Source of the DNA: Beroe forskalii
Lineage: Eukaryota > Ctenophora > Nuda > Beroida > Beroidae
DNA: 64,000 nucleotides
Assembly (NCBI GenBank): GCA_011033025.1
Contig: WFMF01000036.1
Location: forward strand, 372,001-436,000
Direction: 5' to 3'
Shown: positions 18,252 to 55,100 of the stretch, piece by piece
Layout: each line of letters opens with the position of its first letter
Position numbering within the stretch: position 1 is the first letter of the stretch
Position numbers and translations under genes: made by a program
Notes under the pieces: model-generated
What the model saw: only the letters and a program-made list of their open reading frames with translations
What the model was told of the DNA's origin: nothing
Database searches by the model: none

Positions 18252-18347
18252 ACCCTGGAATTTCCTGTTCAAATTTATGTCCAAGTTGATTGCTGTGATA
18301 ATTGATAATTTGTTGTCTGACAAATAATTTGATATTGTGTATTTCAG

Positions 18348-19997: not shown

Positions 19998-19999
19998 TA

Positions 20000-25816: not shown

Positions 25817-28260
25817 ATTGCATTTAAAACACCGGGCAATCACGTGTGAATTGTGATGCTAAACAAAAAATACAGAGTAGAGTTCACTCACGTTCCATGA
25901 TGGCACAGCTTACCAAATATCAAATGATCGATCCGATACAATCTTACATAGTTCATATTATCATTATTGCGGTATGACAACAAATTAAGTATAAGCTGAA
26001 GTGCATATTCACGATGTCAAATCCTAATTCAATAAACCCGCCTATTGCAATATCCAATATGAATTTAGTTACTACTCTTCAGATTATTATTACAGGAAAA
26101 CTGAAATACATGCAACTAGCAAGAACCACGTTCGTTTGTACGATTAACTTCCTTATTTTTCGCTCCGTTGGCCGTGCCTGCCACGTGGTAGCCACCTAAA
26201 GGTCACGTGGTGACCACGTGACGAACCTTGTGGTAGGCTGTTACCACGTGAACGTGTCACCTGACCGTGTCACGTGACTAAGACTTGACCTGCCCCAGCA
26301 GAATAATCAGATTCAAACTTACTATAGCAATTCTACAAATATCCACGCACGGAAAATAGGCGGTCGTATATTTATCAACTTGCTACTTTGATACCTGATC
26401 ATGAGCTCATTTCAAAGAAAAAATTGTACTGCACCCATGTACGTGAATCATGATATCTATTACCTATGGAGTAAAAAAACATGGATGAGGGCCAATATGA
26501 ATATTCTGGATGCCCACGAGAGGAAGAGCATAATTGCGTCATAGGAGAATCTCGAAACGCTATACTTAGAATTTTTCGTCGGCGGGTTATGAAAACGTAT
26601 CGAAATTAAGACTTAGTGATCACGTAGGGATTGCTTTTAAAAACACCCTAATTCCTAATCCTTTGACGTCATAATTGGAACTTCATTCATTCATGGATAC
26701 GATCATAGGCGTTGCGAATGGTGTAGATGACCGAAATACTACAATAGACATGAGACAAATAGATTTTTAATTGGCATGTTTTGTTCTATCAAACGAGTTA
26801 TGTAAGTATGTAGTTGAGCGCACATGATTGATACTATCTGTGAACGTTGGTGTCGAAAATTATTAAAACACTAGAAAAGCCCACTGGGCCTGCTAGATAA
26901 TACAGAACCAAATAATAAGCTCAGAAAATGTTTATGAAGGAGCAAAATTTAACATTATTCGTTGGTTCCTTTTAGTAATGGTGGACCGGGCAAGTTTTGA
27001 TTGTTATCATTTGCTCTTGTATGATGAAGTTAAATCTGAAAATTAAAACCGAGTATCGTACTCATACCGAAAGCCAAGATTCACACCAAGAGCAGTATTC
27101 CAAAATCGCAATGTGCTATTCCCAAATTCGATTCAATTTGATTTTGCTTTTGTTCAATTTTTAATTGCTCTAAATTCACATTTTTCCCTTACCATCATCT
27201 CAGCATTAATCTAAATCGATCCACGTCTGCCACAGATTTATGAAGAGATGCTATCGGAAATAGCCTCCACGATGCCAGCCAAACCTGTCCTCGATCTTCA
27301 AATCTTGAATTTCAAATGAAAACATTGAACAGGCCGTTCTTTCAAACGCTACAATGCAGCAGTCAACAACGTATCAGAAAGCACTCGCATAGAACTGATC
27401 ATAATCTGCACGTGCAGAATACGTGTATCCATAGCAACGGCGCGACTTAGCCTAGCTTAGCCTTCGTTTTCCTTGATAATTTCTTGGCAAGCTCAAATTT
27501 AAACTGTGCGCCCGCACAAACAGACATTATTCACGTGCTCTTACGAAATTATATATAAGAGATAAGTAGTCAACAGCAAATGTGAAGAGCAAGCGTAAAA
27601 AGTGACTGCATTTACTTCCTATCAATTACAAATACCGCGGCTGATACTCCTGAGTTTACCGTTCCATAAATCTCGTATTTTCTCCTCCATTCAACCTGAC
27701 CGGTCACGTGTTCTAGAGTGAATTATGCGTAGCACGTGGAACTGACGTGTCAGACATATCAGCCAGTAATGTAGCAGCATTGAAGTCACTAGTAGAAGCA
27801 CAAATGCCACGAGACACGGTCAGGGGAGGTCCGTAGTGGACTGCTATTGGTGCACTAAGTCACGTGAATGAAAATGCATGAATGCATGCATTTAGGTCAA
27901 CTTTTTTTGACGGCAATCGATCCCTCTTATCTCCATAGCGAAAAATAAGAGCGTTATTGGTCGTGTAACATCGTGTCGTGCCTTCGGCACTCCACTCTGT
28001 TACACGACCAATAACTACTCTTGTAGGTACATATCTTGTAACTTGTTTAAGGATGAGGATTATACATTCTAACTATTTGACGTCGCCAGTAATTAGTAAT
28101 AGTGTTATGTAATCAATTATTCAAGATGGACTAAAATTTGCAACTTCATAAGCACTATACGTCAACACTCAACATACTTGAATCTAATCTAATCAGCCAA
28201 TACAATTACGCTACGTAATTTCATCAAAAGTAACATGTACGGTTATAAATCTAATCATAA
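25817..28260. other. Unique interior of the foldback element, with CACGTG cluster
   Basis: No coding region is recognised. Five CACGTG sites occur within 26182-26276 (E-box/G-box type, bHLH-ZIP targets in general), and more CACGTG lies near 27704 and 27737. At 27947-28022 an inverted repeat (TTATTGGTCGTGTAACA arms) surrounds GTGCCTTCGGCAC. The rest is AT-rich and featureless. Confidence 0.55.
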
Positions 28261-28629
28261 TGTGGCAGTCATGACTCGTAAGGTCAACATTGCCACACTA
28301 TCTCATTAGGCGTGCTGACCTTACAGCGAGTGTGGCAGTGTGGCAATAAAAAGGTTGCCACACAGTGTGGCAATGCGGCAGTGTGGCAAATGAGTGTGGC
28401 AGTGTGGCAAACGAGTGTGGCAGTGTGGCTGCCACACTGCTCGTAAGGTCTACTCGCAATATTTCGACATTTGGGACTGTGTACTGCGCAGCGGGAAGTA
28501 GTTTTCAATTCTCGGTACACCGCGCGTCTCATTATCACCCAAGTGGTGTCATTTCGCGCCCTTTCCAACGTATCCTGTGATCACATCTATTACCATCTAC
28601 AGGTCAATGCTATTGTGCAAGGTATGGAT

Positions 28630-31348
28630 TTAACCTAAAATTACAGATAATGCTTGGTTGGTATGTAAATAACCAAACCTTCTGGAGTCTCTACGGCGTG
28701 GGGACGGGGATCTTCTGCGCGGGGAGGGGGATCTTCTACGAGGGGATCGGGGAGAGGGGGATTTCCGTCTAGGCGACGGAGAACGCCGTCTGGGTGAAGG
28801 GGATCTACGCCTGGGCGAGGGGGATCGGCGCCGAGGGGGCGGCGATCGTCTCCTGCTTCCACCGCCGCTTCGTGGAGGGCTGCGGGATCTGAGAGAGGGA
28901 TTGGTGTGAGAGGGATTGGTGTGAGAGGGATTGGTGTGAGGGGATCTGAGAGAGGGATTGGTGTGAGGGGACCTGAGAGAGGGATTGGTGTGAGGGGATT
29001 TGAGAGAGAGATTGGTGTGAGGGGACCTGAGCGAGTGATTGGTGTGAGGCGACATGAGAGAGGGATTGACGTGAGGGGATCTCAGAGATTGGATGAGGGA
29101 TCAAAAAAGGGATTGGTGCGAGAGGATCTCAGAGAGTGATTGGTGTGAGAAGACAAGAAAAAGGGAATGAGACTTCTATTCCGTGAGGGGATTGCAGTGA
29201 ATTCAAGATGAGGGGAATGAAATCAGGATGTAAGGAGGGTCAGAGGGAAGGCCGATCGTGAAGGAATCGTTGGGAAAGAGGTATTAAAAAGGTAGCTATC
29301 GCAAGGAAAGTGGCAAAGGGCCATGGGGAGAGAACTAAGTTAGGACTAAGATAGCGATAAAGCATTCAGATCAAAGCCTGAATTAACAAAATCATGACAA
29401 TTGTCAAAATATTAACCGATAATCGGTAAAACTTAGCTTCATCTTACCATAGCAGAAGCTGATGGTTCGCGTGATGTGCTGAACTAAATACTAAGAATGC
29501 GAGGATTTCGGTGGGTGGCGTTGAAACAAGCTGCCAACTGTTCGGAGGCCGCTATGGTGGCGCTGAAACAAGCTGCCAACTGTTCGGAGGCCCTTATGGT
29601 GGCGCCAACTGTTCGGAGGCCCTATGGTGGCGTTGAAGCGATGTGACGATGGGTGGCGCAGCCGAATTTGTACCGCGGAATTACTGCCGATGTTGAAGTG
29701 TAGCTAGTCACTACAATGCGATGTCGATGTTTTGGTGGCCGTTAAAACACCTTCACAAACGATGTTAGTAGATTGCGATGTTAGTAGATTGCGATGTTAG
29801 TAGATTTCGATGTTAGTAGATGGCGATGTTAGAAGATGGCGATGTTAGAAGATGGTGAAGCTAGACGATGTAAGAAGGGTGCGAAGTTAGACTTGTACGA
29901 TGTAAGTAGCGGTGTAAAACGATGCGGGGGTGATGCCCTAGTACAATACGATTGTTAATTTAAATACAAAAGTACTCGAAATATAATTTGAAATCGTTTT
30001 GATACCGTGGTGTCCCGACTCTTTTGTGCGCGGCGTATTACGACGCACCCTGGGCATTTTCTACGCAGCACAAAATTGCTTTTGGCGGCGAGTGATAGCG
30101 CGCAAATGTACTTTTCATGCAAAAAAGCATCAACACAAATTTGCGACTTGCGTGCAGCAAAAAAGCACATCGCGCGTCGTAAAAAGCCGCGCACGAAACA
30201 GTTGGGACACCACTGATATAATGAAAAACTACTATTCTACCAGATGATATTATTATCTTATCCATATAAAATCAAATTCCCAAAGGACAGATATTTCCCT
30301 ATTTATTTGAAAGAAAGTGTGTATCGTGAAGTAGATTTAGGTATTGAATAGATGGCCAGTGACCATGATGCGTAATGAAGTTTACTATACGCTAAAGAGC
30401 TGCTCTAGAGCAAGATTCACAAGACCAATACAGTACATTATATGCCACTACAGGTCACTGAATAATGAATACAGCTGTCCACTGAGCCTGTACATTCGTT
30501 TCTAAAAGCTGTGATCGAGGATTATTTTCAAGAGCAATTCATTGCTTTCATTAACTGACAGACACATCGTACCTGCGTCTTGAGTCAGATCGGGGAGCTG
30601 GTTTGCGTCCTGTAGATCGAGCCCACTCTACTCTGATCCGACTGCCACACACGTTCTTGTCGTCCATCTCCCGGATTGCATCTTCAGCGTCCCTGTTAGG
30701 GCGAGGTTCACTAGGATCGTTCACATATTACGTAATCACTTGGGAGGGGGGGCGAATGATAACGTTACATATTACTGTAACAAATACAACTAAGGGATCG
30801 TTCACATATTACGTAATCAGATAGGGGGGTCCGAATGATAACATTACATGTTACTGTAACAAATACAACTTAGGGATCGTTCACATATTTAACGTAATCA
30901 CTTAGGGGGGTCTGAATGATTACGTCGGAATGTTGCTATAACAAAATATATAACTACAGTAAACTTGATTACGAGGGGGAGGGGTGGGGGTTAAAATTGA
31001 CCAAAAATTGATAACGTATGATGTGAACGATCCCCTAGGAAAAGATCAAAATAAGGAACTGCTTCAAGAGAATGGTTACTGCAGATTTCATTCCAACAAA
31101 TGTTTCAGGTACATCGTATTACATAGTGTACGTTTTGGCGGATTATTGCATTAAATATACCATTTTGTTAACGTATTTACGTAAATAAGACAACACACGT
31201 CCCTTTCATCTTCAAACTCGACGAAAGCAAATCCAGGCGGGTGTCTGGCGACCCAGACCTCCCTAAGAGCTCCAAACTTCGCAAACTCGCACTCCAGCTC
31301 CTTCTTGTCCGTGCTCTTGTCGACATTTCCAATGTACAGTTTAGCCAT
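28630..31348 (-). CDS. SR splicing factor (RRM + RS domain), left-arm copy
   Basis: Exon 1 (31348-31197, ATG in a GCC ATGG context) encodes [19 protein letters not shown]..., with RNP-like LYIGNV and [11 protein letters not shown] as in SRSF3/SRSF7. Exon 2 (30692-30573) completes the RRM ([19 protein letters not shown]). Exon 3 (28879-28679) is an RS domain of RRRSPSP units; one unit reads RRKSPSP. SR proteins bind exonic enhancers and recruit splicing factors in the nucleus. No zinc knuckle is seen. The donor of exon 1 (GT|GTGTTG) is weak. No terminal exon is found downstream in this arm; reading through the last donor adds about 16 residues to a stop at 28630. Intron 2 carries minisatellites and intron 1 a MITE cluster. 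It is close to a duplicate of 34598-37195, so only one may be active. Confidence 0.85.
28890..29150 (-). repeat. 27-bp minisatellite in frame with RS exon, left arm
   Basis: About 9 units of TCAGATCCCCTCACACCAA plus CCCTCTC (27 bp), abutting the RS exon acceptor. The gene-strand frame RSPHTNPSL repeats and runs open into the RS domain. Confidence 0.88.
29515..29945. repeat. GTTCGGAGGCC and GATGTTAGTAGATTGC repeats
   Basis: At 29520-29640, four units of about 38 bp contain CAACTGTTCGGAGGCC. At 29760-29870, a 15-bp unit GATGTTAGTAGATTGC-like repeats about seven times. Both recur inverted in the right arm (36120-36300 and 35935-36020), so they predate the duplication. Confidence 0.8.
30007..30213. 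mobile_element. Long-hairpin MITE in SR intron 2, left arm
   Basis: It begins GTGGTGTCCCGACTC and ends GTTGGGACACCAC, with about 40-bp imperfect inverted ends rich in GCGCGGC. The matching copy at 35592-35789 lies in the right arm. It overlaps the TGACACCAC-type core at its tips. Superfamily unclear. Confidence 0.6.
30714..31034. mobile_element. Harbinger-type MITE cluster in SR intron 1, left arm
   Basis: Ends GGATCGTTCACATATTACG and GTGAACGATCCC, flanked by CTA on both sides. The 5' end is present three times in tandem (30714, about 30792 and 30873), while the right arm (34925-35089) has it once. It belongs to the same family as 19551-19997. Confidence 0.8.
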
Positions 31349-31599
31349 GGCGGGGGAGCTACGTGGATAGCACGGAGTTAGAGAGTTTTAGAGAGCATGG
31401 AGTGATAGAGGCAGGGTTGATCATATTACAGCAACTCTGTACTGTACAGTATGAAGATGAAAATACAATCAGTTATATGTGCTAATTACTCACGATGCTG
31501 ACAAGTAGAGTGCAGACTGTATTATATAATATACATCCATGATACAATGCAGTGGGTGATAGTTTCATGTACTGGCAATTTTATAGAATATACAATCGG

Positions 31600-33793: not shown

Positions 33794-34597
33794 TGATGGG
33801 AGTTTTAAGGATTGGTTAAGGAGAGACATTTGGAGGAATAATGAACATTATTGGAATTATTGCTACAGTTTTTGTCGTCTTCTGGCAATAATGATGTTAT
33901 CAGGAAATATTCGATACCTCGTATATTTTTTCAAAATTGATTGTCATTTCATCTAGACCGAAACTGTCTTTTCTAGGGCTGATGTTATTTAAAAAGTGAA
34001 CTAGACGTGTTTCTTGATTTCCCTGAATTTAAGCCAGATGTTGTGAATCTATATTGAATATTTTAAGAGAAATGTTTTATGGTTATAAGCTGATATTCTC
34101 ATTGAATGGTGTACTATGATAACAGTTTTCTACACAGCATGGTGTATCATGAAATGCCGCAATTTTCACAACACAATGCTGACAATGAATAATGATGCGC
34201 ACAACTTGACGTCTTCTTGAATCATGTATTTCGTTGTGTAATTAACCCTGTATCTCACCTCATGTTACATGCGATAATTAATGTACATAGCATGTAATTA
34301 GTCTTTCTAACCGACGTTAATTAACAGTTTCCATGTATATTCTATGACGTCATCTCCGCATGTACATTCTATACAATTGCCAGTACATGACACTATCACC
34401 CACTTCATTTGTATTCTAGATGTGTATTGTTTGTCCATACAGTCTGCACTCTACTTGTCAACATCGTGAGTAATCAGCACAAATATAACATTGTATTTTC
34501 ATCTTCATACTGTACAGAATTGCTGTAATATGATCAACCGTGTCTCTATCACTCCATGCTCTCTATAACTCAATGCTATCATCGTAGCTCCCCCGCC

Positions 34598-37280
34598 ATG
34601 GCTAAACTGTACATTGGAAATGTCGACAAGAGCACGGACAAGAAGGAGCTGGAGTGCGAGTTTGCGAAGTTTGGAGCTCTTAGGGAGGTCTGGGTCGCCA
34701 GACACCCGCCTGGATTTGCTTTCGTCGAGTTTGAAGATGAAAGGGACGTGTGTTGTCTTATTTACGTAAATACGTCAACAAAATGGTATATCATCAATCC
34801 GTATCAATGCATGTTATCTGCCAAAACGTACACAGTGTATTACGATGCACCTGGAACATTTGCTGGACAGTGAATCTGCAGTAACCGTTCTCTTGAAGCA
34901 GTTCCCTATTTTGATCTTGTCCTAGGGAATCGTGTAATTATTACGTGATCAATTTTTGACCAATTTTAACCACCCTCCCTCCCCTCGTAATCAAGTTTAC
35001 TGTAGTTATATTTGTTATAGTAACATTCCGACGTAATCATTCGGACCCCCTCCTAAGTGATTATGTAATATGTGAAGTGTGAACGATCCCTAGTGAACCT
35101 CGTCCTAACAGGGACGCTGAGGATGCTATCCGGGAGATGGACGACAAGAACGTGTGTGGCAGTCGGATCCGAGTGGAGTGGGCTCGATCTACTGGACGCA
35201 AACCAGCTCCCCGCTCCGACTCAAGACGCAGGTACGATGTGTTTGTCAGTTTAATGGACGCGATGAATGCTCTAAAATGATCCTTGATCACAGCTTTTAG
35301 AAACGAATGTACAGGCTCAGTGGGCATGCTATATTCATTATTCAGTGACCTGTAGTGGCATATGTACTGTATTGGTCTTGTGAATCTTGTTCTAGAGCAG
35401 CTCTTTAGCGTATAGTAAACTCCATTACGCATCATGGTTACTGGCCACCTATTCAATGCCTAGATCTACTACACGATGAACACTTTCTTTCAAATAAATA
35501 GGGAATTATCTGTCCTTTGCGAAATTGATTTCATATGGATAAAATAATAATTAATTGTCATCTCGTAGAATAGTAGGTTTTCATTATATCAGTGGTTTCT
35601 CGACTGTTTCGTGCGCGGCTTGTTACGACGCGCGTTGTGTTTCTTGCTTCACGCAAATTTGCGTTGATGCTTTTAGCATGAAAAGTACATTTGCGCGCTA
35701 TTACTCGCCGCCAAAAGCAAATTTGTGCAGCGTAGAAAAAAGCACAGCGCGTGTCGTAATACGCCGCGCACAAAAGAGTCGGGACACCAAGGTATCAAAA
35801 CGATTTCAAATAATATTTCGAATAAATTTAGTATTTAAATTAACCATTGTATTGTACTAGGGCATCACCCCCGCATCGTTTTCACCTCTACTTACATCGT
35901 ACAAGTCTAACTTCGCACCCTTCTTACATCTACTAACATCGCAATCTTCTAACATCGCAATCTTCTAACATCGCAATCTACTAACATCGCAATCTTCTAA
36001 CATCTCAATCTACTAACATCGTTTGTGAAGGTGTTGTACGGCCACCAAAACACCGACATCGCATTGTAGTGACTAGCTACACTTCAACACCGACAGTAAT
36101 TCCGCGGTACAAATTCGGCAGCGCCATCCATCTTCACATCGCTTCAACGCCACCATAGGGCCTCCGAACAGTTGGCGCCACCATAGGGGCCTCCGAACAG
36201 TTGGTGGCTTGTTTCAACGTCACCATAGGGCCTCCGAACAGTTGGTGCCACCATAGAGGCCTCCGAACAGTTGGCGGCTTGTTTCAACGCCACCCGTCGA
36301 AATCCTCGCATTCTTAGTATTTAGTTCAGCACATCACGCGAACCATCAGCTTCTGCTATGGTAAGATGAAGCTAAGTTTTACCGATTATCGGTTAATATT
36401 TTGACGATTGTCATGATTTTGTGAATTCAGGCTTTGATCTGAATGCTTTGTCGCTATCTTAGTCCTAACTTAGTTCTCTCCCCATGGCATTTTGCCACTT
36501 TCCTTGCGATAGCTACCTTTAGCCTATATCCTTTTTACTACCTCTTTCTGAACGATTCCTTCACGATCGGCCTTCTCTCTGACCCCTCCCAACCTCCTGA
36601 TTTCAATCCCCTTTTCTTAAGTTCACTGCAATCCCCTCACGGAAGTCTCATTCCCTTTTTTGATCCCTCTCACACCAATCCCTCTCTGAGATCCCCTCAC
36701 ACCAATCCCTCTGTCAGATCCCCTCACACCAATCCCTCTCTCAGATCCCCTCACACCAATCCTTTTTTGATCCCCTTACACCGATCCCTCTCTCAAATCC
36801 CCTCACACCAATCCCTCTCTCAGATCCTGACACAACAATCCCTCTCTCAGATCCCCTCACACCAATCCCTCGCTCAGGTCCCCTCACACGAATCCCTCTC
36901 TCAGATCCCCTCACACGAATCCCTCTCTCAGATGCCCTCACACTAATCCCTCTCTCAGATCCTCTCACACCAATCCCTCTCTCAGATCCCGCAGCCCTCC
37001 ACGAAGCGGCGGTGGAAGCCGAAGACGATCGCCGCCCCCTCGGCGCCGATCCCCCTCGCCCAGACGTAGATCCCCTTCACCCAGACGGCGTTCTCCGTCA
37101 CCTAGACGGAGATCCCCCTCTCCCCGATCCCCTCGTAGAAGATCCCCCTCCCCACGCAGAAGATCCCCGTCTCCACGCCGTAGAGACTCCAGAAGGTTTG
37201 CTTATTTACATAATAGTACCAACCAAATCGTTATCTGTAAATCCACACCTTGCGCAATAGCATTGACCTGTAGATGCTAA
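34598..37280 (+). CDS. SR splicing factor (RRM + RS domain), right-arm copy
   Basis: Exons 34598-34749, 35112-35231 and 36995-37195. The RRM at residues about 3-75 has LYIGNV (RNP2-like) and [11 protein letters not shown] (RNP1-like), closest to SRSF3/SRSF7. The RS domain is [19 protein letters not shown], then repeated RRRSPSP, ending RRRDSRR. It would bind exonic enhancers and recruit splicing machinery. The ATG is in a good context (CCGCCATGG) and a CRE-like site lies about 250 bp upstream. The last exon either splices at AGAAG|GTTTGC to an unseen exon or reads on 28 codons to TAA at 37280. Intron 2 ends in a 27-bp minisatellite that stays in frame with the RS exon. It is the more regular copy, since its promoter is not interrupted. 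Confidence 0.87.
34925..35089. mobile_element. Harbinger-type MITE in SR intron 1, right arm
   Basis: Starts GGGAATCGTG and ends GTGAACGATCC, flanked by CTA on both sides. It is the same insertion as 30714-31034, so it predates the arm duplication. It ends about 20 bp before the exon 2 acceptor. Confidence 0.75.
35592..35789. mobile_element. Long-hairpin MITE in SR intron 2, right arm
   Basis: Counterpart of 30007-30213, with ends GTGGTTTCTCGACTG and GAGTCGGGACACCA and GCGCGGC-rich arms. Shared position shows it was present before the duplication. Confidence 0.6.
36650..36994 (+). repeat. 27-bp minisatellite of 3'-splice-like units before RS exon
   Basis: About 12 units of CCCTCTCTCAG plus ATCCCCTCACACCAAT (27 bp). 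Each contains a pyrimidine run followed by CAG. The last unit changes to TCTCAGATCCCGCAG, the real acceptor of the RS exon at 36995. Read in the exon frame, each unit is RSPHTNPSL without stops. Confidence 0.9.
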
Positions 37281-37529
37281 TAGATGTGATCACAGGATAC
37301 GTTGGAAAGGGCGCAAAATGACACCACTTGGGTGATAATGAGACGCGCGGTGTACCGAGAATTGAAAACTACTTCCCGCTGCGCAGCGCACTGTCCCAAA
37401 CGTCGAAATATTGCGAAATAACCGTCTGGTATGGAACGCGCGAAAGGTTTACCAAAGTACAGAAGACCATAACTTCAACATTTATTTCTTTGTGATTTCG
37501 CCGGCCGCGCGCGCGTAGTACCGTACTTT

Positions 37530-37830
37530 TGCTTGACACCACTTTTGCTTGACACCATTTTTGCTTGACACCTGTTTTGCTTGACACCACTTTTGCTTCA
37601 CATCACTTTTCCTTGACACCACTTTTCCTTGACACCACTTTTCCTTGACACCACTTTTCCTTGACACCACTTTTCCTTGACACCACTATTCCTTGACACC
37701 ACTTTTCCTTGACGCCACTTTTCCTTGACACCACTTTTCCTTGACACCACTCTTCTTTGACACCACTTTTCCTTGACACCACTTTTCCTTGGCACCATTC
37801 TGACTTGACACCGGATTCGGGCTTGATACC
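37530..37830. repeat. 16-bp minisatellite (TTGACACCACTTTTCC), right arm
   Basis: About 19 units, inverted counterpart of 21110-21385. The two flanking GCGCGCGAAATCACAAAG segments are also present (37490 and 38080). Confidence 0.9.
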
Positions 37831-39454
37831 TTGCACAATAGCATTGACCTGTAGATGCTAATAGATGTGATCATAGGATACGTTGGAAAGGGCCTAAAAT
37901 GGTATCACTTGAGTGATAATGAGTCGCGCAGTGTACCGAGAATTGAAAAACTACTTCCCGCTTCGCCGCGCACTGTCCCAAATGTCCAAATATTGCAAAA
38001 TCACTGTCTGGTATGGAACGCGCGAAAGGTTTACCAAAGTACAGAAGACCATAACTCCAACATTTATTTCTTTGTGATTTCGCGCGCGCAATAATTAATT
38101 AAATGATTTAAATTAAATTTACATCAGTGTTAGCAGAAACTAGCATACTTAATTATCATTGAATCCATTTTCAGCCCTGGACGAAGTGGTGTTGGTGCAA
38201 AGTACGATGACTACCGATAATTTCAAGGACAAGAGTATCGGGAGTAATCGCAATTTTCCTGAGCCTGCATAGGTGTACGTACACACAGGGATATAAGTGT
38301 TTAGCAAATCGCCGTTCCGTGTATGATACAGACTGCAGTGTGTATTATGGATGTTACATCGATATATCTATAGTATATGAATTACGAACTGAAACAAGGC
38401 TTGCAGTTTGATATTTTGATATTTTTGAAATTCCGATTTCCAGCTTCCATGTCAATGTTTCACATTTTAAATCAAAAACCATATGACACAATATTTCCCT
38501 TGATAATCCTTATTTCTCAGGAGTGTTATTTCTTATTTATGCTCACATTTCTGTGACATGTACTGTGTTTAAATTTTTATGTTTTCGCAGTTAAGCTTTG
38601 TAGTTTGTGTCGTGAAATGCCAGTCAATTCTGCTTTGAGTGCTGAAAAATGCATCACGTACTCAAACTGTGTACAGATCGCTCGATTACCGGAGGGCTCA
38701 AAAAGACGTGAGGATTTCCTTTTCGCTCTTCAACTTTCTACAATTCTACATAGATTCCATCGAAAGCACAAAATTTTGCGCGTCTTTTTCTCGTGAAGGG
38801 GTCTGACTAACAATATTTCAATCGAGCGATCTGCAAGTGCACATGTTTGCGTCATGTGTGCAGACCGCTTGATAACTGGAGGGCTCGAAAAAGACGCGCA
38901 AATTGCGAGCACTCGAACAGTAAATCCGCGCGTCTCTTTAGCTCTGAGCCCTCCGGTTATCGAGCTGTGCTGTCTGAGCCACACGTATGTCCAAATCCAA
39001 TGTTAAACACGTATATCCCTGTTATCGTCGCGCGGCCTCGTCACTCGTAGGGAAGCGCCGCGCGCTTACACACACCTATGCGGGCTTAGGAAGGAAGCGC
39101 CGCGCGCGTACACACACCTATGCGGGCTTAGGAAGGGATGGGTGGAATCCATCTAGTCCAGTAGTCCAATGTGGAAATCTTGAACAGGTGCAGTTCAATT
39201 AAGTTTGAAGTGCACTTTGACTTTATGCAGTTTGTGCGTCTTTAATGGGTATGTGGCATACAACTATGAACATTTTAACCATCAATAAAATGTCTGTTCG
39301 CCACGAAAACTGAAGCCACGTTTATTTTACAGAAGACGCGCAAACTGCATTTGGTTGCCAGGTTGCAGGTGTTGCCTGGCCCCCTGCGCGCGCGAAGGGA
39401 CAGACAACGTCTGGCAAGCATTTGGAACTATCGCCGTATAGAATGCAATCTTCG

Positions 39455-39696
39455 GTATCTCTCCCATATAAACGGCTCTGAGTGACGTCACAGATCTAAA
39501 CGTCAATTTTTCTGTATCCTAAACCTAACCATAACCCTAACCAAAACCCTAACCTTAATCCTAACCCTGACAAATCTTGACCCTAATCCTGACCCTAACC
39601 CTAGTCCTTAAAGCGCTAGGTGCGCTTAATTATATTTTTCTGAGTGACGTCATTGTCATAGATAATGAAGGCTCCCGTTTATATGGGAGACCTACC
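39455..39696. mobile_element. MITE with telomere-like CCCTAA repeats
   Basis: 242 bp starting GTATCTCTCCCATATAAACG and ending CGTTTATATGGGAGACCTAC plus C, flanked by the 9-bp duplication CAATCTTCG (39446-39454 and 39697-39705). The left arm keeps the empty site (GCAATCTTCGAG on the matching strand). At 39520-39605 it holds about ten degenerate CCCTAA/CCTAAC units. A 9-bp duplication suggests a Mutator-like mobiliser. Confidence 0.88.
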
Positions 39697-39896
39697 CAAT
39701 CTTCGAGTTTCAAAAAGTGCGACAACGTATTACGAAAATGGTCAGATAACAGAAGATATAAATGTAAAATTGATGTCACCATAGCATTTGAAAAGCATGA
39801 AGATACTGACTCGGCCTTAGATGTAAAGGGAAATGGGATGGAAAAAATTTGGAATTTAAATAATATGGTAATTAAACACACAAATATCGGTTTCCG

Positions 39897-42476
39897 TCAG
39901 TCTAGTGTGAAGTCCGTATCATCCGCGAAATCGTCGTGCTGTGAGGCATCGTGGTGTGATTGCAGCTCTCCCGGACAGTTGTCAGACAGGTCGGAGTCAC
40001 TGTGGTACTTGACACCACACCACAGGCAGTAGTGATGCGTAGCACGCAGGTATTGAGCCAGGTGAGGCAGGATGTCTTGGGGCTCGGGCTCGTAGTACTC
40101 CTGAGATGATGCATTGGCTATGAAATTAACATGTTAAGACCAAAGGGTCAAGGGCCAAGGCTTGCAAATAATATGGTTTGAAGCTGATATTCGATATACA
40201 CTTGACAATGCGTAGAACAAGTAGATGATAGGGCAGTCTTGAAATAAATCGATACCACTGGCCAGCCAACCGGCTAGAAGGGTTGCTGGCCAGTCGCACA
40301 GTTAGCTGGCGGTATCGGGATTGTCCAAGGCTGTATGAAGAATAGCTGAATTCTGAAAAGAAACAATTTAAGTATAACACTTAAACGGTAAAACATTTCA
40401 CACAGAAAATCATGCAAGGTAAAAACCTCGTCATCCTCCTCCAATGTGTTTGGCCAGAACCAGAGTTCAGGGGGCATAAGTTCCCGCTGCTCGTCCATCT
40501 GTCTGCAGACCACTTGGCACTTCCTAACCGTAGACAACATTTGTCTGGCACCCGCCTCATTGCTCTTATTCAGACGGAACTGGCGTAGAAGTGCTGTTTC
40601 GTTTCTCTGAAATACACAAAATCAAATTATCAATTATCACAGCAATCAACTTGGACATAAATTTGAACAGGAAATTCCAGGGTTTCTGATTCAATACGAG
40701 AAAATGCATACTTTGTACGACTCTAAGCGATCTTGCTCCAGTTTCAACTTCTTAGCAATCCTCTCTTTCTGCTCTGACTCCTTTCCGAGTCCTGATCTGT
40801 CCTTGAATGGATCAACTGCAATTGGTTCCGCTCTTCCCTCGCCTGTAAAATGTATGCAGAATGGTAGAGGCCAAAAATAAAATCTTCCATTAAATCCATA
40901 TCAGATAGGTGACACCCTCGTCGGTCAATTTTTTGGAGCTGAATTTTCCGAAATGAGTACGAATCTAAAATCTGAAATTAAGCCGCAAAACGAGTACAAG
41001 AATGTGATTTCATTATCATGGTGTAGAATACATATAGTTGTCACTGGTCAACTGATAAGACGATGCATGATCACATAAATTTCACAAGCAATGCATGCGC
41101 GCGACAAACTTGATTAATGCTGGAAGGACAGCTACAGTGCGCGTAAAATATACGCACGTTTCACCTGAAAAGTGGGTTTTGTAACATTAAAATTGGCTTC
41201 GCGCGTTCCGCGTATTTGAAATTTCTGGGAATATTCGGGAGATGATCTGGCACGAAATTGTCATGAAATTTTAACGATGGGTCCTCGACAGAACATGCTG
41301 CGCGCAGGTACGCTCTGTCGCTCCTAAAAATCATTGGAATCTGTCAAGATTTCAAGAGTGAAAAGGTTTTATAGCCAACGGCAGTGGTGAAAGCAATCCA
41401 GTGACAAAAATAAATGTCACAAACGCAGTTAACCGTGTGTGGTAAAGTATGTGGTGACAACGTCACATTTACTGGCATTATGAAAATGTCAGAAGGATTT
41501 AGCCAAATCCTCTGTTCCATGAGTTAGATAATAGATATATGGTAACAGAGTTGGTTGCTGTAAAATGAATCACATTGATAGCCTGCCGATCATTGATCAA
41601 TTTCGAATAGGTACCGAACCGCAGATCTGTGATAGCAACTGATAGAGTCATGGAACCGTCAGTGCATAGTTTTGAACTTGACAAATACTTTGACTGGGCA
41701 CAAAGAGGAAAAGTAATAATTTGTGTGATATAATCCTCTTTGAGAATTACCTACCCACTACTGGTGTATTTCTGAATTCAACCCGAGGAAGTGCAGGGCA
41801 AAAGCAGTGCGTCTCGTTAAAAGCAGGGCAGTTCGGCAGCTGTGACCTAAATACCTATAGACTTACACCTCATATCATATTACACGTAGCTGCACACGGC
41901 AATAATAGACATCAGTGGGCCATAACAAATCAACATGTACCGATGTGATTTGACCAATCAATAATAGCGTACCACAATATACGCATTTCCTCACCTTCTT
42001 TTCCCAGTCCAGTGCCTTCCTTGTAGCCCATCATTTTCATCATCTTGAACCCGGGATTATCCTCGCTGATGACATTGGTATGTAGTCCTTTCAGTAGCTT
42101 GTCTTTAGCAGAGTTCTTACGGGCCTTGGATTCTTCTTTAGCTTCCTGTTGCAAAATTTTAAAATGTAAAGGAACGGTTTATTACTTCAAGAGGCTTACA
42201 CAAAATGTCAAGGAATACTTTATGACTGCTTTGTGAAAAGCCAACTGTCTATTAAATTGCTCCAAAATAAAATTCCATCTCAATTTTTCCACCAAAACAC
42301 CAAGCAAGATATATCTACCCACTCAATTGATGAGACGAAGTTTACCCACCTTCCCTAACAGAATGCAGGTGTCGTTTGTGGGCCTCCAGCTTCCTTTTCC
42401 CCACGCCACGAACCAGTCCAGGCCGTACATCAGAGATCTCTTGCAGGAAACTATCGGACATGTAATCCTCAGCCAT
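39897..42476 (-). CDS. GPATCH11: GPATCH11 (G-patch protein, CCDC75), complete
   Basis: Five exons: 42476-42350, 42141-41995, 40842-40712, 40606-40427 and 40100-39897, all phase-matched, giving 262 residues (human about 285). The N-terminus MAEDYMSDSFLQE matches the family start. The G-patch lies across exons 2-3 (GFKMMKMMGYKEGTGLGKEG, then PIAVDPFKDRSGLGKES). A basic, coiled-coil-like stretch follows (KERIAKKLKLEQDRLESYK), then the C-terminal YCLWCGVKYHSDSDLSDNC with CxxC-like cysteines. G-patch proteins usually activate DEAH-box helicases; the human protein is reported at kinetochores. The exon 2 acceptor is AGGAAG|CT, chosen because it alone keeps phase. The last two exons are duplicated at 18348-19062. 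Confidence 0.93.
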
Positions 42477-47290: not shown

Positions 47291-47545
47291 AACCCGCGAC
47301 CTCCGGTCGGGTGCTCGAATTGGGTTGCGAGTGATGTCAGACCGGACAGACTGGGTCCTGCTAGAAAGCAGTACCTGAGACCTCATATCAAAACATTCAT
47401 AACATACTGTGAATTTGCTGATGAGACAGTGCTTTACAATCCATATAGTCTAGTTAACCAGTGTCAAGGATCTAATTTCACGTCTTCTGATACATAACGG
47501 AGTGGTGTCAGACCGGACAGACGCCAGACAAACATAATTACATCA

Positions 47546-47928
47546 GGGGGCTGGCAAGCCCCCGCGGCGTTTTTTCGGAGAACCAACTTTGCTCGGGCCG
47601 AAGGCCCGAGCGCTCACCCGAGGCCCCGAAGGGGCCGAGGGTGAGCTCGTGACGGCGTCACAACTTTGCTCGGACCGAAGGCCCGAGTGCTCACCCGAGG
47701 CCCCGAAGGGGCCGAGGGTGAGCTCGTTACGGCGCCCACTTTTGCTCGGGCCGAAGGCCCGAGCGCGAGCCCGAGGACCCGAAGGGTCCGAGGGCGAGCT
47801 CGTTATACGGCAGTCCTAACGGTAGACGAGCCTCCGAGGGCCCGAAGGGCCCTCGGAGGCGAGTCCGTTACGGCCGAATGTCCGGAGGGCCTGAGGACAA
47901 GTTTCCGTAACTTTGCTTGCCAGCCCCC
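47546..47928. mobile_element. MITE built of GAA-loop GC hairpins, copy A
   Basis: 383 bp with inverted ends GGGGGCTGGCAAGC and GCTTGCCAGCCCCC. The interior is a chain of hairpins whose loop is GAA closed by C-G: 47591-47611 (9-bp stem), 47613-47645 (7+6 bp stem with GA opposite GA), a repeat of the pair at about 47668-47722, another at about 47750-47804 with two GA/GA steps, and 47825-47865 (14 bp, GA/GA, 3 bp). No coding capacity. Target duplication not evident. Confidence 0.8.
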
Positions 47929-48160
47929 AACTATATGTTTTCATGGATTGGCCATATTTCACGTTAAAATTTGGGCAAGTTCCCGTGGCCGAAATCACAC
48001 CAAAATTTGAACATCGCATGTTTAGAGGTCAAAGGTGCAACTGTCAAAATTTCAGATTGATTGGATTTAAAATGGCCGAGTTATGACAACTTGAATATTG
48101 CCAAAATCGAGGGTGTTCTTGTTAAAATGGGTTACGACCATATATATACATAGGTATATC

Positions 48161-48473
48161 AGGGCGCTGGCAAGCGCCCGCAGCCACGGAAAAAAAACCC
48201 GAGGGCATCTGCCCGAAGGGCAGATGCCCTCGGCCCGAGGGGCCGAGGGCATCCGAAATAGCATCCCCGGCCCGAAGGGCCGGGGATGCTACCAGCATCT
48301 GCCCGAGGCAGATGCCCTCGGCCCGAAGGGCCGAGGGTAGCCCAGCAGTCCCGGTCCGAAGGGCCGGGACTGCTGGCCAGACACTCCTAACAAGCCAGTA
48401 GTACCAGCATGAAGTGCTAAAAGTGGTAGCGGAACCGTTTTTCAAGTATTGAAAAATACGTTTGCCAGCGCCT
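48161..48473. mobile_element. MITE built of GAA-loop GC hairpins, copy B
   Basis: Ends AGGGCGCTGGCAAGC and GTTTGCCAGCGCCT, related to copy A. Hairpins with GAA loops: 48199-48233 (16-bp perfect stem), 48260-48290 (14 bp), 48315-48337 (10 bp) and 48344-48374 (14 bp, one mismatch). The stem sequences differ from copy A; only the architecture and the end motif CTGGCAA are shared. Confidence 0.8.
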
Positions 48474-48814
48474 ATTATATAAAAATACAGTAAATCGCGA
48501 AAATCGCGATTTTCGAGTCGCGTTTTTTACATGTTAATTTAATATGTTGGTCATGAAAATTTGCACAGACATAGTCCATGACATTAATAACAAACCCTGT
48601 AAATTTCATGAAAATCGACCGCGTCGTTTCGTCACAATAAATTATCAAAAAACGCTATTTTATCAAAAATTAGAACATGGACTACGACCCGATGATAAAA
48701 ATTATGTTTGAGTGTTCTCGAGAACTATTAAAGATAGAATTATAATCTAAACGGCATATGAAACTTCAGAATAGTGTGCGTGCACTAGGCCATATTAAAT
48801 TTTAAAATGATAAT

Positions 48815-49480
48815 TCCTTAATTGGTTAATTGGCCAATTAAAGTAATTATCGCGTATAACTCAAAAAGTAGAACTGATAGCGTCTGAATTCCAACGACAT
48901 CATTAACTTACGTCAAAATTACGATTTATTCGTTTAATTTAAGTACCGGTTGCTAACCGTTTAATTAATTAATTGGCCAATTAAGGTAATTATCGCCTAT
49001 AACTCAAAAAGTAAGAATGATAGCGACTTAATTCCAACGGCATCACTAACTCAAGCCAAAATTACGATTTGTACGTCTTATTTAAGTACCAGTTGCCCGC
49101 CGCTTAATTAGTTAATTGGCCAATTAAAGTAATTATCGCCTATAACTGAAAAAGTAAGAATGATAGCGACTTAATTTCTATGGCATCAGTAACTTACGTT
49201 GAAATTACGATTTATTCTTTTAATCTAAGTTCCGGTTGCCCGCCGCTTAATTAGTTAATTGGCCAATTAAAGTGATTATCGCATATAACTCAAAAAGTAA
49301 AAATGTTAGCGTCTCAATTTCAACGGCATCATCAATTTAAGCCAAAACTACGAATTATTCGTTTAGTCGAAGTATCGGTTGCCAGCCCCTTAATTAGTTA
49401 ATTGACCAATTAAAGTAATTATCGCATATCACTTAAAAAGTCAAAATGATAGCGACGTAATTCTCTCGTTTAGTGCATGA
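48815..49480. repeat. 143-bp tandem satellite, five units
   Basis: TTAATTGGCCAATTAA-type palindromes recur at about 48832, 48974, 49118, 49261 and 49404, spacing 142-144 bp. Between them lie conserved TAATTATCGC and AACTCAAAAAGTAA blocks. Confidence 0.88.
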
Positions 49481-49627
49481 AAGTTCTTGGCAGTAGCAAT
49501 TATCACAACTTGAACTGATTGTCGTACGTGTTATGCCAAAAAAGAGTGATATGGATAGCCAAAAACAATTGAAAATTGTTTGGGTTACGCAGCCACTCCA
49601 GTACCTAAAATTATACGATTAAAACTA

Positions 49628-50690
49628 TTGATATGAGTTTAAATCGCAGCCTGTCCGTGGCGGTGTGCTTTGGTTACAAAGAAATATCTTGGTCACGCTT
49701 ATGATGTGAGCTTATTACACAGTACACCCGTAACAACGTTCTACTTCATTCTTGTCGAATATCTTCACAATCGCGATGTTGTAACTCCAACCATAATAAG
49801 TGTGACTTGGTGTTTCCTAACGGCATTATTGAAGTAGTGGACTCATTTTTTACATTGCAATCGCCCTCAAAGTCGCTAAAAGATGACGATTTCAATCATC
49901 AAATAGGGATGAACGTACGATTAATTTCAGCATGAGTTCAAGCCTTTTCACGTGCAAACACACTTCAAAGAACGGGGGGGGGATCATGGATTAAGTGCAA
50001 GACACGAGGGGTACTAAGTGATTTTTTGCCCAATTTTGAAATACCACCCACCACCCCTTCAGATAATCCCATGAACTAAGTGATATTTGACACTATTTGT
50101 AGTGACCCACCCCAAAATTAGCATAAAAACCTATCCAAGCGGCAGATTGTCCCCTGTACTAACTGATATTTGTCACTATTTGAAGGTACCCACCCCTAAA
50201 TGAGCATAAAACGCTGCAGATTGTCCCATGTACTAACTGAAATTTGTCATGTTTTGTAGGGACCCACCCCAAAATGAGCAGTTTGTCCCGTGTACTAACT
50301 GAAATTTAATACAATTTGTGGGGACCCACCCCAAAATTATGACGTCATCTGGCAAAAAAGTGCCCAAATATGGAAAAATATGCTATTTGGACTAAGTGAT
50401 TATGATTTTCCCATAAGGTGACCACCTCAGTTAGTACAGTGGACTAAGTGATTTCGCCAAGGGCCAAACACCACCCACCCCGGCCTCGTGTCCTGCACTT
50501 AGTCCCTGATCCCCCCCCGCAATGAATGCTAGAAATTATAGGTACTTTCTTTACGCGTCCACTCACGCTTAATTAGTTAACTGAAGGAGATTGAGTTGAC
50601 GGCAGTGAGTTTATGAATGTTAATTCTGCTTATTTCTTAGTAACCAAAGCACACCGCCACGGACAGGCTGCGATTAAAACTCATATCAGC
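49628..50690. repeat. Inverted repeat pair around a MITE
   Basis: About 60 bp at 49628-49690 (containing CCTGTCCGTGGCGGTGTGC) is repeated inverted at 50634-50690. The interval includes the 49974-50519 element. The pair may be ends of an older element. Confidence 0.65.
49974..50519. mobile_element. MITE with G-run ends and internal ~90-bp repeats
   Basis: Inverted ends of about 40 bp: G-run, then GATCA, then TTAAGTGCA and GACACGAGG; the right end is the complement. Inside, TGTACTAACTGAAATTTGTC-type units repeat at about 60-90 bp with ACCCACCCCAAAAT. No coding capacity. Target duplication not clear. Confidence 0.75.
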
Positions 50691-50819
50691 CATATCTCGA
50701 AAACCATAGAAGATACATGGCTCATCGACCCAGCGTTGGAAAGAAGAAAGATAGTACTTACAAATAGTGCACTTAAAAAGTGTCTAACGTCATGTTTATG
50801 ACGTCATTATGACGTCACA

Positions 50820-51305
50820 AAATCAAGATTTTCAAACTTCAATTTCCGAAAAATGGCCGTTTTTCAGCGCGTTTTTTCGATATAAAGCTTTCAAGATAGG
50901 AAAAAATGTTCCTTCTAGCTCCGGAAGGAAATTTAATTTAGTTTCCAAAGCTGTGCTTAAAAATTTCCGGGCTCACAGGCATCATTGAGATATTTGCGAT
51001 TGTTTAAACCATGGTGACGCAAAAAATCGCGAAAAAATAGCCAAAACGGTAGAGCTTAGTGTGAGAGAACGGGGCCATCCCTGGTCTTCATCTTTAGATA
51101 TGTTGTCGGTCATAGTCCCAAGTTTGCCGTAAAATGGGTCTCATGTGGTTGCTACAATATTATGACGTATTTATGACGTCATCAGTGGTATGCGGTAATC
51201 AAAAATTTACATACGTTACAACAGCTGCTTTCTTTGTATTTGTTAAGCTAGACTTAGCATTCATTTGAGTTTGAGTGCTTCAAATAAGCACTGAAAAAGG
51301 GTGAT
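50820..51305. other. AT-rich non-coding DNA
   Basis: No gene, ordered repeat or splice-supported exon seen. CGCGAAAAA words near 51020 resemble those near 48500. Confidence 0.35.
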
Positions 51306-51574
51306 ATTTTTTCCAAAAACCAAAATGGATTTGGTTGTGTTGGGCGCGGCGTTTTTTTGCTGAAAAACCAATGATATGAGAAAAAGCGACCGTTTAAACG
51401 GCCGCAACGTCACTTCAAGTGCCCAGTTTTATTTTATTAAAGCAACAAAATGAAAAAGCACTTCGAAGTGAGTTGTAGCCGTTTAAACGGTCGCTTTTTC
51501 TCATATCATTGGTTTTTCAGCAAAAAAACGCCGCGCCCAACACAACCAAATCCATTTTGGTTTTTGGAAAAAAT
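51306..51574. repeat. Perfect 97-bp inverted repeat with 75-bp loop
   Basis: 51306-51402 and 51478-51574 are exact reverse complements by eye (ATTTTTTCCAAAAACC... to CCGTTTAAACGGC). The outer loop is also partly complementary (CACTTCAAGTG and CACTTCGAAGTG). It is a young foldback MITE or a hairpin RNA source; no target duplication is evident. Confidence 0.9.
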
Positions 51575-52103: not shown

Positions 52104-55100
52104 TCACCTGTCCTTCTTCTTATTACTAGGTCTGGAGAACTGTAATTTAGTCCCGCCAGCCGTGGCATGGAACTTCGTGTTCATCTGGTTAGTCTGAGCC
52201 CAAGGCGACTCAGCGTTAGTCGTATCCTGATCCAACAAATGGGTGTACTTTGTCCGACCACTCCGACCAAAGTTCTTGACTTGCATGACTTTGGGCAGGA
52301 TCGACTTGTCAAAGTGGTCCTCGAGTGTCGGTTTGGAGAAGTCCTGTTTAAGGGTCGTATCGTCTTTGTCGAGGTAGAACGCTCCACGGTGGTAGTATTT
52401 CTGGAGGAAACGGTACTTTCCTTTCTCGATTTTGTTCGTGACTTGTTTGGGGTTCATTCGTTGCCACAATCGTCTTTCTTCGTCCGTCATGTTCCGGACT
52501 TTCTCTAACTCGAGAGACTGAAAAATACATAGACACTATTATAGAAATGCAATTTACAAGATTTTAAGGTTATTGCTTTATTGCGATGGTTGTCAACGAA
52601 TTTTATCAATTCAACTGGATACTTTATCGAGAAAATTCTCTGAACGCAATAACAAACGTTGTCCGTTGGTTATAAACTGAAGTACTTTTTAAAAACAATA
52701 ATCTGGTGATAATATTGTTTAGTTAATAAAATGATAATAAGTATTGACACCCCACCTCCTTCTCCCTGGCCTCCCGTTCCTCCCTCACTGTCTTGATCCT
52801 CCGGAGTTCCCGCACTTTCCAAGCCTCGTATTCTTCCTCCTCGTTCTCATCATCTGTCTTTATAGCATCGCCTGGTGACGTCATTATCAAGGCTCGAAGC
52901 AGTGGGTTGGTGACGTCTAACTCATTATTAAAAGTATTATTTACGAATTACAAATCAAACGTGGACGAGTGCCGCACAAACCACATGGCAATGAAATTTT
53001 CCTTCGAAAATATGGGCATCTCTGTCGTAAAATCCCCAAATTTCGTTCCACATGGATATGTCTCGTGAGGTATCCCACTACCCAAAGATCCTACGTCTCA
53101 CATGGCAGCTTACCATCGTCGTCGCTGTCTGCAGCCTGGTTCTTGAGTTGTTCTGCTGTCAGCTCCTCCTTGATGATCTGCTCCACCATCTGATGCGTTT
53201 CCTTCTTACGGGACTCCTTCTTAGCTTTATCCACCTGGAACCAGGAAGGGTTATTTACAAGATATTGTTTGCTGAAAGCGTGTTATCAGGGTTATTTACA
53301 AGACACTGTTTAATGCGTTTGTTTGAAGCGTGTTATCAGGGCTTTTTACAAGATACTGTTTGTTTAATGCGTGTTATCAGGGCTTTTTACAAGATATTGT
53401 TTGTGTAAACCGTGTTCCTTAGAAGTTTTACAATCATACTATTCTTTACTTCTTCTCTCATTAGATCTTTAGAAGTTTTACAATCATAGGTACTGTTATA
53501 GTTTCTTCTTATCACATTCGCTTTTTAGAAGTTTCACTATCAAACCGGTCTATTTACTTCTAATCTAATTAGCTTTCTGGGAGTTTCACTATCAAACCGT
53601 TCTATTTACTTCTAATCTAATCAGCTTTTTGAAAGTTTCACTATCAAACCGTTCTATTTAGGGGGGGGGGGGCCAACCTCGAAAAACCCCCTTAAACCCC
53701 GAAAAATTAAACCCCTATTTGGCTTTTTTCATATCCACTTTGGGGTTTTTGGGGGTTTAAATTAGAAGATACTGGGTACCATTTCAAAATAGGGCCAAAA
53801 ATCGTCAACAAAAAGGGTACCATTTCAGAAAAGTTCCAAAATTGCTCACCAAAAGTGGTACCATTTTAGAAAAGGGCAAAAAATCCTGTAAAAAAATGGT
53901 ACCATTTCAGAAAAAGGCCAAATATCATCATCAAATATGGTACCAAAAATCCTCAACAAACATAGTACCATTTCAGATGAGGGTCAAAAATCGTCAACAA
54001 AAATGGTACCATTTCAGAAAAGGCTAAAAGGGTCACAATTCCTCAACAAAAATGGTACCATTTCAGAAAAGGGCCAAAAATCGTCAACAAATATAGTACC
54101 ATTTCAGATGAGGGTCGAAAATCGTCAACAAAAATGGTACTATTTCAGAAAAGGGCAAAAAATCGTCAACAGATATGGTACCATTTCAGAAAAGGGCCAA
54201 AAATCCTCAACAAATATGGTACTATTTCAGAAAAGGGTTGAAATTCCTCAACAAATATGGTACCATTTCAGATGAGGGTCAAAAATCGTCAACAAAAATG
54301 GTACCATTTCAGAAAAGGGCCAAAAATCGTCAACAAATATGGTACCATTTCAGATGAGGGTCGAAAATCGTCAACAAAAATGGTACTATTTCAGAAAAAG
54401 GCAAAAAATCCTCAATAAATATGGTACCATTTCAAAAAAGGGTTGAAATTCCTCAACAAATATGGTACCATTTCAGAAAAGGCCCAAAATTCCTCAACAA
54501 AAATGGTACCATCTCAGAAAAGGGCCAAAATTCCTCAACAAAAATGGTATCATTTCAGAAAAGGGCCAAAAATCATCAACAAAAATGGTACCATTTCAGA
54601 AAAGGGCCAAAAATCCTCAACGAATATGGTACCATTTCAGAAAAGGGTTGAAATTCCTCAACAAATATGGTACCATTTCAGAAAAGGGCCAAAATTCCTC
54701 AACAAAAATGGTACCATTTCAGAAAAGGGCCGAAAGTCGTCAACAAAAATGGTACTATTTCAGAAAAGGGCAAAAAATCTTCAACAGATATGGTACCATT
54801 TGAGAGAAAAGCCGAAAAAACACAACTTAAGTAGTACCATTTTGTAAGAAAATCGATATTTTCCAACCGAAAAACGGCTATTTTCGTCAGTTTAGCCTCC
54901 TTTTACCCCCATAAACCCCGAAAAATTAAACCCCCATTTGCCAATTTTTATATCCACCCGGGGTTTTTCGAGGTTGGCCCCCCCCCCCCTATTTACTTCT
55001 AATCTAATTAGGTTTGTCTGCCTTACACTCAGGCCCCAGGGAAAGAGGGCCTTTGCAAGGAACTTGACTTGGCTAAGAGCTAACCTTTGTTTATTTGACA

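Follow-up and report, generated by a model that had tools for sequence, protein, structure and literature searches.

Hairpin-chain modules as 5' ends of nested, non-autonomous, probably Helitron-like transposons in the ctenophore Beroe forskalii

The window analysed here, a stretch of 64,000 nucleotides of Beroe forskalii DNA, contains two GC-rich modules made of chained hairpins, A at 47543-47928 and B at 48159-48472, each bounded by 14-bp inverted repeats. The initial annotation treated the two stretches as elements in their own right; neither is a whole element, and both are 5' modules, with which elements of two non-autonomous Helitron-like families, here called A and B, begin. In the window, B is nested in A, having been inserted into a TA-rich tract of A, and both copies are damaged: the damaged B joins the A tail near 50687, and A ends at 51567-51573. 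The parts of the nested pair are as follows.

47543-47563, plus strand: 5' terminus of element A, TCA followed by the hairpin GGGGGCT-(GGCA)-AGCCCCC, inserted after A
47563-47575, plus strand: 5' asymmetric terminal inverted repeat (ATIR) of A, CGCGGCGTTTTTT
47591-47865, plus strand: hairpin chain of A, seven C-GAA-G-tipped hairpins, of which four have GA/GA steps; hairpins one to six form three tandem units of 76-77 bp
47915-47928, minus strand: inverted copy of the A 5' end, GCTTGCCAGCCCCC, closing the chain
47929-48158, plus strand: body of A up to the TA-rich tract that holds B
48159-48179, plus strand: 5' terminus of element B, TCA followed by the hairpin GGGCGCT-(GGCA)-AGCGCCC, after an A of the TA-rich tract
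48179-48187, plus strand: 5' ATIR of B, CGCAGCCAC
48199-48456, plus strand: hairpin chain of B, mostly GAA tips, with GAG, CGA and ACC once each
48438-48456, plus strand: last hairpin of B, AT-rich, with a GTA tip
48459-48472, minus strand: CGTTTGCCAGCGCC, which repeats the B 5' end in inverted orientation and closes the chain
48818-49463, plus strand: 143-bp minisatellite within B
49553-50688, plus strand: remainder of B to its damaged 3' end, with the outer arm and the terminus GGCTATCC missing
50687-51573, plus strand: resumed tail of A, comprising a big 3' inverted repeat, the ATIR, a hairpin and the end GG plus an A-run before T
51523-51535, plus strand: 3' ATIR of A
51544-51562, plus strand: 3' hairpin of A, AACCAAA-TCCAT-TTTGGTT

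Within B, positions 49970-50520 are probably a further inserted element with the ends CGGGGGGGGGATCA... and ...TGATCCCCCCCCG, flanked by CAAAGAA and CAATGAA, a possible target duplication; this insert is missing from the B copy in L056. Downstream of the nested pair, on the minus strand at 52104-52490, lies an exon of a homologue of the spliceosomal protein MFAP1 (PDB match 1.5e-50), which shows that this is an ordinary eukaryotic nuclear locus; with the exon nearby and a contig of 846 kb, the bacterial contamination for which the initial annotation had allowed is excluded. Elsewhere, the window holds a large inverted duplication (18252-31594 against 34361-40683, in pieces of 0.75-2.5 kb with 87-91% identity), centred near 33 kb at its inner pieces and carrying minisatellites in both arms, as well as a direct repeat (4754-7288 against 21892-24953) in two pieces of 1.5 and 1.1 kb with 98% identity that includes a 43-bp minisatellite. 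A long array of an 18-bp minisatellite occupies positions 1-1263, with a GC skew of -0.68 in the first kb, and a minus-strand open reading frame at 14227-15486, with PAN and sushi-like matches (sushi just under the cut-off) and a C-terminal hydrophobic stretch, is possibly that of a receptor.

In copy A, GAA-tipped hairpins are centred on 47601, 47629, 47706, 47754, 47782 and 47845, accompanied by a mismatched one near 47678 and a weak non-GNA hairpin, GTGAC-GGC-GTCAC, at 47649-47661. Copy B has GAA tips at 48216, 48275 and 48326, a one-mismatch GAA hairpin at 48342-48376, a GTA tip at 48447 on an AT-rich stem, and three non-GNA tips, namely, GAG at 48238 on a 14-bp stem, CGA at 48305 on a 9-bp stem and, in a weak hairpin, ACC at 48292. 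By these coordinates, the hairpin chains that had been described in both stretches are real. Their description as almost wholly C-GAA-G hairpins needs the qualification that B also carries GAG, CGA, ACC and GTA tips and that the approximately 230 bp between the modules (47929-48158) are free of hairpins. The GA/GA sites stand where they had been placed at 47613-47645, 47690-47722 and 47825-47865; the remaining one, assigned to 47772-47804, really lies at about 47765-47799, in a hairpin with two GA/GA steps. Folding of the plus strand with DNA parameters yielded z scores of about -11 for A and -12 for B relative to 60 dinucleotide shuffles per module, every one of which was weaker, so that the hairpin content of the modules is far beyond chance.

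When the host assembly (216 Mb in 1134 contigs) was searched with window positions 47500-48500, the best 40 of 1001 candidates gave 77 match rows, and the copies, aligned with their flanks, displayed a sharp, conserved 5' end at A|TC, with TCAG following the flank. The assembly carries this 5' end as TCAGGGSGCTGGC; the pattern TCAGGGSGCTGGCAAGCSCCC has 612 exact genomic matches (290 + 322; none for the reversed control), of which 600 are preceded by A and 12 are not. The pattern was found once in bacterial and archaeal genomes, on a Planctomycetota contig lacking a hairpin chain, which we rejected as a sign of bacterial origin, and had no match in viral contigs. We collected 68 modules, 26 of family A, 24 of B and 18 of a C type that is a relative of A; with a pattern that admitted only TC or TA, 66 start with TCAG and two with TAAG, and the preceding base is A in 65 and G in three. 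At the other side, the end of family A is GG(A)0-7|T in all 10 copies that have it, and that of family B is CTATCC(A)|T in all 13 copies with an intact end, out of 20 loci of which one (L060) is damaged and six have no end in view; T directly follows all 23 intact 3' ends. Elements of family A are 1.49-1.74 kb long in nine copies, the tenth, of 2.18 kb, spanning a tandem pair, and those of B are 1.89-2.72 kb long in eleven copies, one of which (L063) begins at a doubled module.

Two empty sites were recovered. In the first, a C-type element on contig C847 (L073 position 2428 to L074 position about 480) interrupts a Helitron Rep-helicase gene within its open reading frame, and a sister copy of the gene continues without a break at that point (CAACAA|TCCCTT). 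In the second, the sequences on either side of the B copy in L057, once joined, match 40 scored places, spanning bases 1-148 in 38 of them and 2-148 and 3-148 in the others. Neither site needs a target duplication, and there is no clear one, with a duplication of 1-2 nt possible in TA-rich sites. The host sequence around several A and B copies (L012, L019, L020, L057 and L062) is similar, as would result from insertions into one TA-rich host repeat at closely spaced positions, and the TA-rich tracts of A have themselves been hit repeatedly, leading to nested chains as in L021.

In 21 of 22 elements, the two ends are linked by a 9-13 bp inverted repeat: from 5' position 21 onward, the sequence pairs with one lying 30-35 nt before the 3' end, a distance that in family A leaves out the terminal run of 0-7 A. 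The exception is L030, in which a mismatch cuts the ATIR to 8 bp. The letters of the ATIR are family-specific and match within the element: CGCGGCGTTTTTT in A, CGCAGCCAC in B and CCGCGGCGGT in a C-type copy whose sequence stops a few nucleotides before its 3' end. An ATIR of equal length was reached in 0-8 of 500 shuffles, and in 20 of 500 for L030. The 3' ATIR is followed by a hairpin of 7-8 bp in the three elements folded, one per family, at 3-10 nt from the element end. At the 5' end, a variable base pair of the terminal hairpin and the inner inverted copy covary (G/C/C in 44 and C/G/G in 24 of the 68 modules), and copies with this pair mismatched number 2 + 2 genome-wide, one of which also fits the pattern with 612 matches. 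One A element compared with one B element shares 26 bp at the 5' end (88%), a 21-bp match and scraps; the two being otherwise dissimilar, the hairpin chain is an architecture found in two dissimilar families.

The loops of the chain were counted in 66 non-overlapping modules, as L021 and L063 each contain a second module. Among triloops on stems of at least 6 bp, 277 of 289 are GNA (251 GAA, 25 GTA, 1 GGA and 12 non-GNA), and all 68 modules give 288 of 300; elsewhere in the window, the corresponding count over the 20 commonest loop types is at least 5 of 47. The loop of the terminal hairpin is GGCA in the 66 of 68 modules that fit the strict pattern. GNA and GNNA are the loop classes found in DNA mini-hairpins of very high stability (PMC4686876). 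Of the two-by-two internal loops with pairs on either side, 155 of 165 are GA/GA; by family, A has 72 of 76, C has 83 of 87 and B has none of 2; GA/GA steps are confined to A- and C-type modules and occur in no B module, and in a count limited to GNA hairpins all 166 GA/GA have the context C[GA]G. The GA/GA hairpin pattern GAGGNCCCNNNGGGNCCGAG, in which the loop is free, has 911 genomic matches (444 + 467; none for the reversed control), and among the approximately 94 matches listed, the exceptions are three loops (TGA, TAA and GCA) and one A/C pair. Equally with the loop free, the inner pair of GG.CCC...GGG.CC is A-T in 45, C-G in 41, G-C in 32 and G/G in 1 of 119 cases in the 66 modules.

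These counts bear directly on a purely mutational origin, in which template switching perfects palindromes while slippage and unequal exchange multiply them, the hairpins having no function. Tandem organization is what such processes would produce, and it is seen in the three 76-77 bp units of A and the 143-bp array of B; moreover, one tip core, CCCGAAGGG, is present in most stems, so that most GAA tips may share one ancestor. Correction of one arm by the other, however, should turn these internal loops into GA/TC, yet they are overwhelmingly GA/GA, and TC/GA and GA/GA versions coexist in two hairpin types. GNA also prevails across three different closing stems (counted at 5 or more pairs), CCC in 208 of 211, GCC in 83 of 85 and CAA, the AT-rich GTA hairpin of B, in 22 of 22, to which the rarer TCC (4 of 4) and CGA (3 of 3, loop GCA) can be added. 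A GAC closing stem, by contrast with the GNA rule, bears a GGC loop in 11 of 11 instances, a recurrent 5-bp hairpin of A that favors the mutational origin, and TCG bears GCC in 4 of 4. On balance, we consider it unlikely that mutation alone has kept the hairpins.

The initial annotation had suggested selection for shape rather than for sequence and had proposed covariation in the stems as the check. Among the 17 hairpin variants with at least four copies (some of which differ in their flanks only), relatives differ mainly by paired changes, such as C-G, A-T and G-C at one position and A-T to G-C at another, with several more between B stems, provided that these are homologous, or by switches from TC/GA to GA/GA in two hairpin types; changes involving G-T and A-C are seen as well. 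In rare variants, 133 Watson-Crick pairs have changed: 99 are broken on one side, 29 have become G-T, 4 are compensated and 1 is broken on both sides, so that 128 of the 133 were altered on one side only, in a count that leaves out 16 variants too distant from the common ones and that, by requiring a GNA loop and 5 or more tip pairs in every unit, hides broken tips. Thus, the suggestion of selection is supported by the common variants, whose differences are largely compensated (Watson-Crick to Watson-Crick, or TC/GA to GA/GA), with the qualification that the rare ones carry mostly uncompensated stem changes, as expected of dead copies. The pattern appears to fit a constraint on pairing in source copies combined with decay of dead copies; since many hairpins are tandem duplicates, the independent events are few.

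The host genome encodes Rep and PIF1-helicase genes, and a search with Helitron_like_N gave 20 matches. Around these 20 places (1.5 kb on each side and further pieces) no matching element end that would reveal an autonomous partner was found, bar one, and this sole end belongs to the C-type element inserted in the Helitron gene; nor, in the surroundings examined, is any of the 20 a RepHel of the Helitron2 clade linked to these ends. Among the first 100 of the 612 5' ends (contigs up to C202), two contigs, C110 and C199, hold both an end and a Rep match, tens of kb or more apart, and a further variant of the 5' end searched by pattern occurs in 15 places, none of them on contigs with Rep matches. 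We attribute isolated CTGGCAAG words in L036/L049 and L050 to chance, and a 54-bp similarity between one A copy and L072 to a different repeat.

Taken as a whole, the observations are best explained, with a probability of roughly 0.6, by a nested pair of non-autonomous Helitron-like rolling-circle transposons whose hairpin chains are 5'-subterminal modules. That the hairpins act as single-stranded DNA in transposition, a role put forward in the initial annotation, gains strength from the Helitron-like ends; it is something that we still infer, and consider only slightly better than an even bet. A Rep-helicase supplied in trans would nick at A|TC and peel off the strand beginning with TC; on this displaced strand, with G-N-A at most tips and GNNA in the terminal hairpin, the chain could fold at once and might then provide the enzyme with repeated docking or pause sites recognized by their loops, or else a shield for the single strand. 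Under such a scheme, the loop and the capacity to fold would be retained while the letters of the stem drifted. Several features speak against this explanation: no autonomous element with these ends turned up around the Helitron_like_N matches, the 3' end is devoid of CTRR, insertion is at A|T instead of a T-rich target, the 5' ATIR begins 20 nt from the terminus, non-GNA tips recur, B is devoid of GA/GA, tandem duplication leaves few independent events, and the rare variants are mostly uncompensated.

The same end can also be read in the opposite polarity, with TCAG as a Helitron 3' end (hairpin plus CTGA|T) and the hairpins as stacked terminators presenting TTC loops on the transferred strand. 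The reversed end indeed reads as a hairpin plus CTGA before T, in agreement with CTRR. The other end, however, would then lack TC and start with TTTTTTCC or GGATAGCC, and, with its 0-7 terminal A's, it is the less precise of the two, when in Helraiser the TC end is indispensable and the opposite end is loose, its loss being tolerated with lower activity (PMC4778049). Furthermore, on the 3' side the ATIR precedes the hairpin, an order in keeping with forward polarity. We regard reversal as improbable.

Selection on an RNA structure, in which the folded transcript would undergo processing or protect the element, seems less probable still. The same stems would be strong in RNA, which can likewise adopt C-GAA-G tips and tandem GA. 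Against this, the chain sits at the transposition end beside the presumed nick site, the loops are of the DNA mini-hairpin types, and a search of the window against Rfam gave no match at curated thresholds, none of which is decisive. Finally, cut-and-paste MITEs bounded by the CTGGCAAGC repeats, as the initial annotation identified them, would account for the 14-bp inverted repeats at the module bounds and are very improbable, given that the bounded pieces are 5' modules of longer elements with a TC start, an A|T target and subterminal repeats, that among the scored places (the best 40 of 1001 candidates) there is no solo A module and none of the 77 rows stops at the inverted copy inside A (a single row, on contig C628, stops 8 nt beyond that of B, where another element has inserted), and that A precedes TC in nearly all exact 5' ends with no clear target duplication.

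Returning to the rolling-circle explanation, it is conceivable, if rather doubtful, that the GNA tips of DNA hairpins form a shape code for Rep-helicases of the Helitron2 type, with one 5' hairpin in fungi and an array here, including sheared GA/GA steps in A and C, where selection would preserve the loop and the ability to fold and leave the stem letters free; the recurrence of a non-GNA tip in the unfiltered census weakens this idea. If true, it would mean that the end of a eukaryotic transposon is recognized as a shape of single-stranded DNA. How Helitron-like enzymes recognize and process ends as single strands is only partly known, and the hundreds of natural variants available here, in which stems differ and most loops stay the same, along with GA/GA in two families, make the reading of loop shape directly testable by binding or transposition. 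The division between stem and loop among these variants is that of the stem-swap and loop-swap experiment on Helraiser, in which the 3' hairpin with a foreign stem kept about 90% of activity and a change of its loop and closing pair was like deletion of the hairpin (PMC4778049). The ends described here also give search criteria for overlooked rolling-circle elements with non-canonical termini.

Among known systems, those outside the Helitrons resemble these elements only in part. Terminal inverted repeats at both ends with a target duplication, the hallmarks of MITEs, are not what is found here, and Replitrons, with short direct terminal repeats and target-site duplications (PMC10741241), do not fit. 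The early promoters of phage N4 include a GAA-tipped DNA hairpin (the P1 oligonucleotide ends in GTTGCGAAGCAAC) that is bound by protein as a single-strand structure (PMC12633501), but the protein is a phage RNA polymerase and the hairpins are single, so that this likeness, as that to REP/RAYT hairpins (PMC2817692), is an analogy only.

Within the Helitrons, Helitron1 as represented by Helraiser (PMC4778049) shares the 5' TC, insertion at A|T, a 3' hairpin and the absence of a clear target-site duplication, a comparison that allows for 1-2 nt in TA-rich sites; it differs in having a 3' CTRR and a hairpin about 11 nt from the 3' end, whereas here the end is GG(A)n or CTATCC(A), with the hairpin at 3-10 nt, and hairpins are at the 5' end. 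HINE and DINE-1, the non-autonomous Helentrons (PMC4067079, PMC7492417), are likewise non-autonomous, with tandem repeats (in B, of 143 bp), an internal inverted copy, a 3' hairpin and a variable end homopolymer (in A), and their palindromic subTIR 2-4 nt from the 5' end has its equivalent here; they differ in the TT target, compared with A|T here, whereas our elements have the inner inverted copy about 1-2 kb from the 3' end and, in addition, the hairpin array. Helitron2 (PMC3627910) comes closest, with a T/TC start as here, asymmetric terminal inverted repeats of which the 3' copy lies upstream of the 3' hairpin, and a 5'-terminal hairpin, represented here by GGGSGCT-GGCA-AGCSCCC at 3 nt from the end in 612 exact copies; compensatory changes at the ends have been reported there as well (PMC3627910, PMC5148889), and Bao and Jurka suggested that, by pairing with each other, the two ATIRs open this 5' hairpin and thereby define where the process ends (PMC3627910). 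The Helitron2 ATIRs, of 8-15 bp, have the 5' copy 0-2 bp from the end, unlike the 20 nt here, and the Helitron2 target is T-rich (TTTT|T/C), in contrast to A|T. The Fusarium elements FoHeli1/2, which belong to Helitron2, start with TCAG and have a 5' hairpin with a GAA loop (PMC5148889), whereas here the terminal loop is GGCA and is followed by an array of mostly GNA hairpins with GA/GA in A and C, an array of a kind for which we found no printed case in the open-licence literature. Given that Helitron2 departs in target and 5' ATIR offset, Helitron1 in CTRR and HINE in the TT target, these elements are very probably Helitron-like, closest to Helitron2, and represent a variant with a 5' hairpin array.
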